Source: an uncultured Bacteroidales bacterium (GTDB lineage: Bacteria > Bacteroidota > Bacteroidia > Bacteroidales > Muribaculaceae). Taken from it: 64,000 bases of DNA. Below, in pieces: positions 52,811-55,000 of the stretch. Each line of letters opens with the position of its first letter. The first letter of the stretch is position 1. The stretch is taken from contig CAMWHE010000006.1 of NCBI GenBank assembly GCA_947173955.1, positions 1 through 64,000 of the forward strand. The letters are read 5' to 3'. The notes beneath the pieces are model-generated. The model did not search any database and was not told the origin of the DNA. It worked only from the letters and a program-made list of their open reading frames with translations. Position numbers and translations under genes: made by a program.

Positions 52811-53662
52811 CTACAATGCCTCAAATTGCATGGGTAATTTAAAAGGATACTTATCCTTTATTTCTTGCCACGTCTTGAATTGGATGTGATTTGAATCAAT
52901 ATATGTACCGAATTTTTCTAAAAATGCTTTTATATCTTCGTTAGTCGCAGGGTTATTACCATCCGTAATAAATATGACATATTTTTTATCATTATCTGCA
53001 CGAATTATATTTCTGAATATCTGATAATTCAGTAGAATATCTTCTGCGGTAGCGTTGTCTTTAAGATATTCCGGCAACAGTTTCTCATATTGACGAGCCT
53101 TGCACTTATGACGTTCATCTGCATCCTTTTTCTCTTTAGCAAATCCGTCTTCCGTGAATTTTATCTCAAAATAGACTTCAACTTTATCATCTTTGATATG
53201 GAAATCAAAAGAAGTCCCTTCATTTTCCGATTTACCCAAAACATCAAACTTAATGTCTTCCTTGTATTCAAAATCGCATTTAGCTCCCTCATGAATTTCA
53301 ATATTGAAAGCATCCTTCATAAATTTGACCATCTCTTTAGTGGCACAATGCTTTACATCAATTAGTTTTGAAAAAAACATCATGCATAGAATCTGAGAAG
53401 AATTAACATGATGTGCATACTGATGTAATCCTCTTAAACCGGGAAGATATGGCTTGCAGTCGAATTCAAAGTACTTTTTAATTGCATCTGCGCGATTACG
53501 AAGAGTATTATCATTGTTCTTTAATGGAAGAATATGCTTTTTCAAATACTCTTTACCATTGCGTACATATGTTCCACATTCCCAATTCATATCCTTGGTA
53601 AGGACTTCTAACACTCGGTCTGTGTAATTTGCGTGACTTACACTCTGCGTTTTTGTTGTCAT
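52811..53662 (-). CDS. PD-(D/E)XK nuclease, PGN_0703-type putative restriction endonuclease
   Basis: From ATG 53662 it is 283 aa. The nuclease core is visible as Asp153 (TSFDFHI) followed by Glu166-Ile-Lys168 in VEVYFEIKFTEDGF, the PD-ExK pattern. The strand-loop-strand layout and flanking sequence recall the PGN_0703 family of putative restriction endonucleases, by memory of pattern only. No methyltransferase gene is nearby, so it is not an ordinary type II pair. It is AT-rich compared with its neighbours, suggesting transfer. It follows the SLOG-sigma gene by 44 bp on the same strand. Confidence 0.75.
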   Translation of the reverse strand: MTTKTQSVSHANYTDRVLEVLTKDMNWECGTYVRNGKEYLKKHILPLKNNDNTLRNRADAIKKYFEFDCKPYLPGLRGLHQYAHHVNSSQILCMMFFSKLIDVKHCATKEMVKFMKDAFNIEIHEGAKCDFEYKEDIKFDVLGKSENEGTSFDFHIKDDKVEVYFEIKFTEDGFAKEKKDADERHKCKARQYEKLLPEYLKDNATAEDILLNYQIFRNIIRADNDKKYVIFITDGNNPATNEDIKAFLEKFGTYIDSNHIQFKTWQEIKDKYPFKLPMQFEAL

Positions 53663-53706
53663 AATAAATTGCAATTAGATGGTTAATAATAAATATATTG
53701 GTTGAA

Positions 53707-54417
53707 TTATCTACTTAGTGCCTCTTCGATGCTTTGTCTTATCCACCGGATGGCGTAGGTCGTGAATTTGAATCCTTGCGACGGGTCATATTCATAGGCA
53801 GCCTGTATCAGTCCTTTGTTTCCCTCTGCAATCAGTTCCTCAATGGGATGATTCGCTGTAACATATTTCATAGCTGTTGTCTTAACAAACCGTCGGCACG
53901 CGAGCAGCAGTCTGTCTTTCGCGGCATCGACGTCGCCCTCTCGGGCTTTGATTTGCCGGACAAGCGCTACTTCTTCTTCCACTGTGAGAAGGTCTTCCCG
54001 CCGGGTATCATCAGAATAATCCATATGACAGTTTGATATGGATTGATTTGATGCTATGGGCTCATCGGCAAATACAACAAGGGCATTTTTCCCATATCCA
54101 TACGATACCCCGGCATCCTCTACGCGGGATATTTTTGCCACAGACCGTGTAGTGAATGCTACTACCATATCGGCATCGTCAATAAGTGCATTATTCCGCG
54201 CCAGCTTTGATTCAGCCTCGTCAGTTAAACAATTAAACACTGAAATCGGTATCGAGAATTGAACGGCATACTTTCTCACATAAGAGTTCAAAAGCGTATC
54301 GCCTCCGGTGATACGAAATTCCGATACTGATTTTTTCCAGAAATGATGACGGAAGATTCTCACCCAATCATGATAGGAGAGTGTGGGATTTATAGTCCCG
54401 ATTATAGCTAACTTCAT
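53707..54417 (-). CDS. Fusion of SLOG-like sensor domain and sigma-70 regions 1.2-2
   Basis: The 236-aa product has two unrelated halves. Residues 1-118 look like a SLOG (YspA/DUF2493-like) Rossmann domain: KLAIIGTINP, the loop ITGGDTLLNSYVRKYA, FSIPISVF, and RNNALIDDADMVVAF, followed by YGYGKNALVVFAD. SLOG domains bind nucleotides or related ligands in many conflict systems. Residues 143-236 match primary sigma factor regions 1.2 and 2: LLTVEEEVALVRQIKAREGD, then IEELIAEGNKGLIQAAYEYD and FKFTTYAIRWIRQSIEEALS. The protein ends just after region 2.4, with no region 3 or 4. It could bind RNA polymerase core and melt or recognise a -10-like element, but the biological role is unknown. Confidence 0.8.
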   Translation of the reverse strand: MKLAIIGTINPTLSYHDWVRIFRHHFWKKSVSEFRITGGDTLLNSYVRKYAVQFSIPISVFNCLTDEAESKLARNNALIDDADMVVAFTTRSVAKISRVEDAGVSYGYGKNALVVFADEPIASNQSISNCHMDYSDDTRREDLLTVEEEVALVRQIKAREGDVDAAKDRLLLACRRFVKTTAMKYVTANHPIEELIAEGNKGLIQAAYEYDPSQGFKFTTYAIRWIRQSIEEALSR

Positions 54418-54650
54418 TTATATATAAAAAAATTGGTGCTATATATATTATACGATCGAGATTTTTGGGAAATGTATCTTTTTGTTAAAATAGATATTTC
54501 AAAACACAACACTTCACGAATTCCTCGGCGTAAAGCAATGATAATACAGACTATACGCGTTAGAAAAGTTTAACTTAAAAATTTTAACAAATACATTTCT
54601 CATAGAATCTTAGCCTCGGGCTTCCCCTCCTTAGCGTTTGTTATTATACG

Positions 54651-54963
54651 AAAAAAGCGTAGGAATCTGTATCTGTTGCCGTCTTACCATTGGAGGCTTC
54701 TCGCATTGCCTTTAGATGTCGAACGGCAACAGCGACGCCTACGCCAGTATATGCTACAGATGCTTTCGGCCTCATCACTCACGGGACGATCTGCCGGACG
54801 CATGATATCACATACTAACAGGCATCTACCGTTGCTACTCCTTGACATCTAAGTGAATCTTGCGAGAATTCCCAATGGACAAGAATCAGCGCGGATAAAC
54901 GCTTCAATATTTAATGCAGCTCTCACGCATTGCCCTTAGCCGGGCATAGGCGATACGGTCTGT
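54651..54963 (-). ncRNA. Candidate structured noncoding RNA, about 310 nt
   Basis: No ORF of note exists here. A good minus-strand promoter (54969-55000) predicts a start near 54963. The 3' end forms a terminator-like structure: CCTACGC/GCGTAGG (54738-54744 with 54657-54663) stacked on ACGGCAACAG/CTGTTGCCGT (54723-54732 with 54673-54682), then six T on the minus strand. Nine bases in the enclosed loop (54712-54720) are perfectly complementary to 54844-54852, a candidate pseudoknot. AATGC/GCATT and GCCC/GGGC hairpins lie near the 5' end. GGCAATGCG occurs twice (54702-54710, 54926-54934). It does not match tmRNA, RNase P, 6S or SRP RNA as I know them. The 230 nt between it and the SLOG-sigma ATG (54418-54650) show no gene. 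Confidence 0.55.
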
Positions 54964-54968
54964 TACTG

Positions 54969-55000
54969 CAAATGTACAGCTATTTTTCAATTAATACAAG
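54969..55000 (-). promoter_or_regulatory. Promoter of the candidate ncRNA
   Basis: On the minus strand CTTG (54997-55000) is followed by exactly 20 nt and TACATTTG (54969-54976), a full match to TAnnTTTG. Confidence 0.65.

Follow-up and report, generated by a model that had tools for sequence, protein, structure and literature searches.

Terminating riboswitches, such as those for cyclic dimeric guanosine monophosphate (c-di-GMP), and T-box leaders are long conserved 5′ leaders in which a switch strand pairs in either an antiterminator or a terminator, and many copies of them stand before different genes. In the cobalamin riboswitch, a loop-loop helix between two hairpins stabilizes the regulatory fold. 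Here, we analyzed 64,000 nucleotides (nt) of DNA from an uncultured Bacteroidales bacterium of the family Muribaculaceae (GCA_947173955.1, contig CAMWHE010000006.1, positions 1 to 64,000; hereafter, the window) and describe an RNA encoded on its minus strand at 54651-55000 together with its promoter. The RNA belongs to a previously uncatalogued family that is absent from Rfam 15, and it is probably a 5′ messenger RNA (mRNA) leader that acts as a riboswitch-like, two-state transcription attenuator at the head of a large regulon of surface, secreted, and stress genes. It resembles the c-di-GMP riboswitches and T-box leaders in its length, its shared switch strand, and its multiple copies per genome. 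Elements of this general kind, attenuator leaders and riboswitches, are known; the present family is distinct in that its antiterminator is a long-range 5′-3′ duplex of copy-specific sequence, in that a kissing loop is located at the terminator tip, and in that its targets are many and unrelated. It also matches no Rfam riboswitch or T-box model. A loop-loop helix is shared with the cobalamin riboswitch, but the Rfam cobalamin models are unmatched, and one of the present kissing loops lies inside the terminator hairpin.

The locus and the RNA family

A Bacteroidetes-type promoter is present at 54969-55000 (minus strand), with a −33 CTTG (55000-54997), a 20-nt spacer, and a −7 TACATTTG (54976-54969), as described in an earlier reading of the window made from its letters alone (the original prediction). 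The pattern CTTG-N20-TANNTTTG occurs twice in the 64-kb window against an expectation of 0.05, and TANNTTTG is found at most 230 nt upstream in 179 of 203 family copies, compared with 26 in shuffled sequence. Transcription would start near 54963 on the minus strand, giving a leader of approximately 310 nt from promoter to terminator. The window's list of open reading frames (ORFs) contains no gene-sized ORF within this RNA, in line with the predicted 310 nt or so of noncoding sequence. A generic scan for sigma-70 promoters and terminators was uninformative, because Bacteroidetes promoters and the long terminator fall outside its patterns.

The transcript would comprise a variable 5′ part (54906-54968) and a conserved core of 255 nt (54651-54905), both on the minus strand. 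RNA position p hereafter corresponds to window base 54905-(p-1). The core is matched by a covariance model (R2, built from 76 diverse copies, the window copy included) with 179.9 bits and E = 4.5e-42, the next best match in the window having E = 8.3. Its folding energy (54905-54651) is −101.5 kcal/mol (z = −6.2; 0 of 200 shuffles as good), and a 318-nt version of the window RNA gives z = −5.5. The GGCAATGCG repeat of the original prediction does occur twice in the window copy, but it is not a feature of the family: the upstream occurrence, in the variable part, is unique to the window copy (1 of 208 family members), and the repeat was rejected as a functional element.

The family is widespread. 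A DNA search of relatives gave 11 matches in the source genome and was positive in 25 of 61 genomes. A first covariance model built from 34 copies (R1) matched in 110 of 118 Muribaculaceae genomes, where up to 17 candidates were scored per genome and the copy numbers are lower bounds. With R2, 22 copies were detected in the 2.46-Mb source genome, and matches were obtained in 88 of 295 Bacteroidales genomes, representing 57 of 178 genera. A single match was found among 197 Bacteroidota genomes outside Bacteroidales, and it has a proper kissing loop, a terminator, and a lipoprotein-like gene downstream. Named records with pattern matches include, among others, Duncaniella muris, Heminiphilus faecis, Xylanibacter caecicola, and Barnesiella. 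Copies within one genome differ by approximately 25%, as in an old family, and the phage, plasmid, and viral-contig collections searched contained no family match. Copies are often located at contig ends (C53, C63, C75, and C7 in the source genome), which suggests that the repeated element interrupts assembly and that the copy counts are too low. Two copies lie back to back at one locus (L301, 1054-1299 on the minus and 1556-1772 on the plus strand), approximately 260 nt apart and pointing apart, and two others (L035 7268-7588 and L036 7191-7511) have a similar extra segment of approximately 60 nt in the variable apical part.

When the window RNA and its distant relatives were searched against Rfam 15 at the gathering threshold and at a relaxed E-value, no family matched, which bears out the earlier statement that the RNA is unlike the common housekeeping RNAs; the best weak match to the window was SdsR, with E = 5.2 and on the opposite strand, and no model reached the threshold on the distant relatives. 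The same two cutoffs gave no match to the known riboswitch models, nor did the T-box model match, and 6S RNA, RNase P RNA, and tmRNA were found neither with their family models nor with ARAGORN. The original prediction had named a 6S or RNase P match, or a lack of compensatory changes, as findings against it; neither RNA was matched, and compensatory changes were found, as described below. Bacteroidales-1, Bacteroides-1, Flavo-1, and 6S-flavo, which are Bacteroidetes structured RNA candidates with Rfam numbers (Weinberg et al. 2010, PMC2864571), do not match the present RNA even at E-values up to 10. The de novo structured RNA candidates from human microbiome bacteria reported by Fremin and Bhatt (2021, PMC8040213) could contain the present family: the main text of that paper holds no matching motif, and an overlap is possible in its supplementary tables, which were not covered. 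No description of the family was found in the literature searched, supplements and subscription papers being outside its reach. The covariance model gives annotators an RNA feature that Rfam-based pipelines leave blank.

Compensatory changes in two competing sets of helices

The fold is strongly supported by compensatory changes. In the state that we designate as ON, a long-range duplex between the 5′ and 3′ parts of the RNA flanks an 8-bp kissing loop. The duplex consists of H2, in which CCATTGG (54872-54878) pairs with CCAATGG (54687-54693), and H3, in which TTAGATGTC (54844-54852) pairs with GACATCTAA (54712-54720); the latter is the 9-base complementarity to a segment 130 nt upstream that was noted in the original prediction, and it covaries. 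The kissing loop K joins TTCTCGCA (54861-54868) to TGCGAGAA (54698-54705), which forms the tip of a GGC/GCC hairpin. H2 and K are two long-range helices beyond the features noted earlier. Further inside, the upstream strand of the antiterminator, GCAACGGTAGATGCCTGTT (54817-54835, RNA 71-89), pairs with the switch strand GCGTAGGCGTCGCTGTTGCCGT (54723-54744, RNA 162-183), which can pair either upstream, as antiterminator, or downstream, as terminator. All these strands, and those of the terminator below, are on the minus strand.

We scanned 171 copies for mutual information without supplying a structure. H2 (27-34:213-220) and the kissing loop (39-44:202-208) ranked top, H2 giving the strongest covariation among all column pairs, and H3 gave weaker signals. 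H2, H3, and K had all been absent from a first RNAalifold consensus, because local helices compete with them; H2 and K emerged from the scan for mutual information. R1, with which the copies had been collected, contained none of H2, H3, K, or the 71-75:176-180 helix. In A5, a MAFFT alignment of 76 copies that share less than 78% identity, the ON helices are 87.6% paired with a covariation of 0.362, as compared with 0.164±0.006 in shuffled alignments and at most 0.133 in slid versions. The covariation of H2 alone is 0.607 (0.186 shuffled), with changes on both sides in 8 of 8 pairs. For K alone, 95.7% of the cells are paired, the covariation is 0.225 (0.094 shuffled), and 7 of 7 pairs show compensatory changes; distant copies replace both loops together, as in TCATCCAAA/TTTGGATGA (L111), ATCGCCAAA/TTTGGCGAT, and CTTGGCC/GGCCAAG. 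All 7 counted pairs of H3 have changes on both sides, and the antiterminator helix 71-75:176-180 is 91.5% paired with 4 of 5 pairs compensated.

The competing state is the intrinsic terminator. Its stacked helices and six T, all of which the original prediction had reported, were found at 54744-54651: a 7-bp helix GCGTAGG/CCTACGC (54744-54738 with 54663-54657) and a 10-bp helix CTGTTGCCGT/ACGGCAACAG (54732-54723 with 54682-54673) are formed by the switch strand and the terminator 3′ arm ACGGCAACAGATACAGATTCCTACGC (54657-54682), and are followed by the U run TTTTTT (54651-54656), which is conserved in most copies. The terminator helix 162-168:243-249 is 97.9% paired, with 5 of 7 pairs compensated and a covariation of 0.230 against 0.196±0.005; for the terminator state overall, the values are 95.6% and 0.200 against 0.138±0.004. 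RNA 176-180 and 163-168 each keep a conserved upstream and a conserved downstream partner, and the antiterminator pairing 71-75:176-180 is mutually exclusive with the terminator pairing 176-182:225-231. A similar choice is found at the 5′ end, where GAAGCGTTTATC (54894-54905) pairs with RNA 76-84 (P1; 91.4% paired, covariation 0.255 against 0.212) or with the terminator tail ACGCTTT (P0; 92.8% paired, 0.176 against 0.149). P1 and the local terminator helix T1 have weak to moderate support; R1 already included P1, the local hairpin S, and the terminator, and their support is therefore slightly biased. When the single-sequence folds of the copies were sorted by the partner of the terminator, most copies fell into the class 'other'.

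The two arms fit each other in a copy-specific manner. Own 5′ and 3′ arms average −36 to −40 kcal/mol, whereas arms swapped between copies give −19 to −22 kcal/mol. The own arm is the best partner in 66 of 76 A5 copies, in 17 of 18 copies in the source genome, and in 33 of 39 later copies, the last set being not fully independent because these copies were collected with R2, which contains the helices. In a permutation test, 0 of 2000 permutations fitted as well.

Leader position, proposed switching, and rival explanations

Of 171 copies, 161 have an ORF that starts past the U run, at a median distance of 54 nt, and in 109 of the 161 the start lies 40-69 nt after the run. The presence of a promoter upstream and of an unrelated gene start approximately 54 nt past the terminator in nearly all copies indicates that the RNA is a 5′ leader. 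The 200 downstream proteins fall into 131 clusters, the largest of which is BspA-like/leucine-rich repeat (28 proteins); others are PEGA, VWA, TerB, C10 proteases, GIY-YIG, protein kinase, and helix-turn-helix-like proteins, and a crude count puts the share with a hydrophobic N-terminus at approximately 60%. Alignments also revealed a conserved segment behind the terminator, AAGGAGGGGAAGCCCGAGGC in the window (54613-54632, minus strand) and AACGAGRGGATGACCGCGGC in its family form, a loose version of which is present in 65 of 210 copies. In many Muribaculaceae copies, AACGAGRGGATGACCGCGGC is located approximately 20-30 nt before the start codon, and in approximately 10 copies its ATG shares the reading frame of the gene (N-termini MTAA/MTEA); this ATG may be a second start or belong to an upstream ORF. 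Attenuation by a leader peptide was considered and rejected: a mini-ORF, ATGCCCGTGGATATGTAA, occurs in many Muribaculaceae copies and is broken or absent in others.

To these computed results on the family, its spread, its leader position, and the compensatory support for both sets of helices, we add a model in which the RNA would switch, in a given direction and upon a trigger. Transcription would start at the Bacteroidetes promoter, the 5′ arm would stay free, and the emerging 3′ half would zip onto it during elongation, forming the antiterminator helix (RNA 71-89 with 162-180) and then H3, K, and H2, which is also the order predicted by folding successive prefixes of the growing window RNA. 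The 5′ end may in addition mask the last bases of the terminator through P0. In this ON state, the 3′ arm of the terminator would be left without a partner and transcription would read through into the gene. In the OFF state, the 5′ end would pair locally (P1 and the local 5′ hairpin) and the switch strand 162-183 would pair with 224-249, so that the long hairpin and the U run would end transcription and yield the leader of approximately 310 nt. A signal, be it a ligand, a protein, or an RNA, would shift the balance between the states; with read-through as the default, a factor that holds the 5′ arm would cause termination. The full ON fold, which leaves the terminator without a stem, has an energy of −101.5 kcal/mol compared with −88.8 kcal/mol for the forced terminator fold (calculated with no separate kissing-loop geometry or pseudoknot energy), and the latter brings in P1 and the local 5′ hairpin unaided.

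The alignment contains many invariant positions. We tentatively consider that the family might comprise riboswitches of a new class, or leaders that a single dedicated regulator recognizes, by which one cellular signal sets the transcription of dozens of unrelated genes for surface, secreted, and stress proteins throughout Bacteroidales, including approximately 22 units in one 2.5-Mb genome. Should the model be correct, a common RNA switch would precede many BspA-like, secreted, PEGA, VWA, TerB, and other genes in Muribaculaceae and a good part of Bacteroidales. These genes share no feature in their own sequences by which they could be grouped, and identification of the trigger would reveal a single signal underlying part of the surface and stress output of these genomes.

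Several points weigh against the attenuator. The energies strongly favor the ON state even in the absence of a trigger, and a real switch would therefore need a blocker of the 5′ arm. The upper antiterminator helix 84-89:163-168 is 94.2% paired with weak covariation, and the covariation of P0 and of the local hairpin S is weak to moderate. Almost every copy has a different gene at the usual distance, so that no shared pathway points to a ligand. In the window itself, the first long gene downstream (53707-54417, minus strand), which has a sigma-70 region 2 at its C-terminus (PF04542, E = 6.7e-14) and is called here SLOG-sigma after the original prediction, starts 233 nt past the U run. A relative, G004, has the same upstream genes and the SLOG-sigma gene and lacks the RNA; its sequence just before and into this gene is approximately 76% identical to the window, and the window gene thus seems to keep an upstream region of its own. 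This conservation would suit a stand-alone, trans-acting small RNA (sRNA) family of many copies that ends at the terminator and is followed by genes with their own promoters, as would the stable energy-based fold and the presence of a promoter and a strong terminator in most copies. The original prediction had likewise offered an independent sRNA. However, the RNA heads approximately 22 transcription units in the source genome and, elsewhere, more than 100 unrelated gene families, with a fixed spacing to the start codon; in most copies, the 40-69 nt between U run and gene could hardly accommodate a separate promoter. Moreover, a constitutive sRNA would gain nothing from an exchange of strands between antiterminator and terminator, yet both pairings have been conserved. 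We thus regard an sRNA family as unlikely.

The SLOG-sigma site also bears on two explanations that we rate lower than this. A search of 79 genomes detected full-length SLOG-sigma homologues in just two others. One of these genomes, G001, carries the RNA 268 nt before the gene, and the other, G004, lacks it. Judging from these sites, the RNA is an optional module ahead of SLOG-sigma. Such a difference at one syntenic site, the very many unrelated genes behind the same element, and the frequent position of copies at contig ends would be expected of a mobile 5′-leader cassette or recombination site, at which genes are exchanged behind a common promoter and the fold is needed for DNA recombination. 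The divergence of copies within a genome nevertheless indicates an old family and not a spreading element, no match was obtained in the phage, plasmid, and viral-contig collections, and alternative pairings with a U run are features of a transcript and not of a DNA site; this explanation is quite improbable. The other one is that the RNA is the partner of a SLOG-sigma and restriction-enzyme cassette, like a retron or a type III toxin-antitoxin system; an RNA part of the neighboring cassette had also been put forward in the original prediction. This explanation fits the occurrence of the RNA ahead of SLOG-sigma both in the window and in G001. It is mostly refuted and very improbable, given that 21 further copies occupy other sites in the genome, for the most part ahead of different genes, and that G004 has SLOG-sigma without the RNA. 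The neighbors of the RNA are sigma region 2, REase-ARP, PLD, pectinase-like, and other proteins, with no reverse transcriptase among them, and a search for tandem repeats in the RNA found none. A retron noncoding RNA was accordingly rejected for want of an adjacent reverse transcriptase, and a type III toxin-antitoxin RNA was rejected because no tandem repeat is present and the next long gene encodes the sigma-region protein. The link of the RNA to SLOG-sigma is loose. The 5′ leader with attenuator function is thus the reading that we prefer for the family, and its regulatory target at the SLOG-sigma locus is uncertain.

Genes around the window copy

A putative ORF of 29 codons, MRNVFVKIFKLNFSNAYSLYYHCFTPRNS (54514-54603, minus strand), has its ATG 47 nt past the U run, which is the usual position of a gene start. 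The corresponding ORF in G001 has 25 codons (L340, approximately 1290-1365), and the two ORFs are not obviously similar. In G001, a pair of MNT nucleotidyltransferase-like and HEPN-like genes, noted by eye, directly precedes the RNA and SLOG-sigma (L371, 3627-4290); the pair is absent at the corresponding site of G004. The N-terminal part of the sigma-region protein has no Pfam family match. The gene that comes next in the window encodes a REase-ARP restriction-endonuclease-like protein (PF22558, E = 1.1e-26; 52811-54417 for both genes). The sigma part of the sigma-region protein matches the defence protein MzaA in PADLOC (E = 1.7e-13), and the sigma-region and REase-ARP genes are possibly a defence pair.
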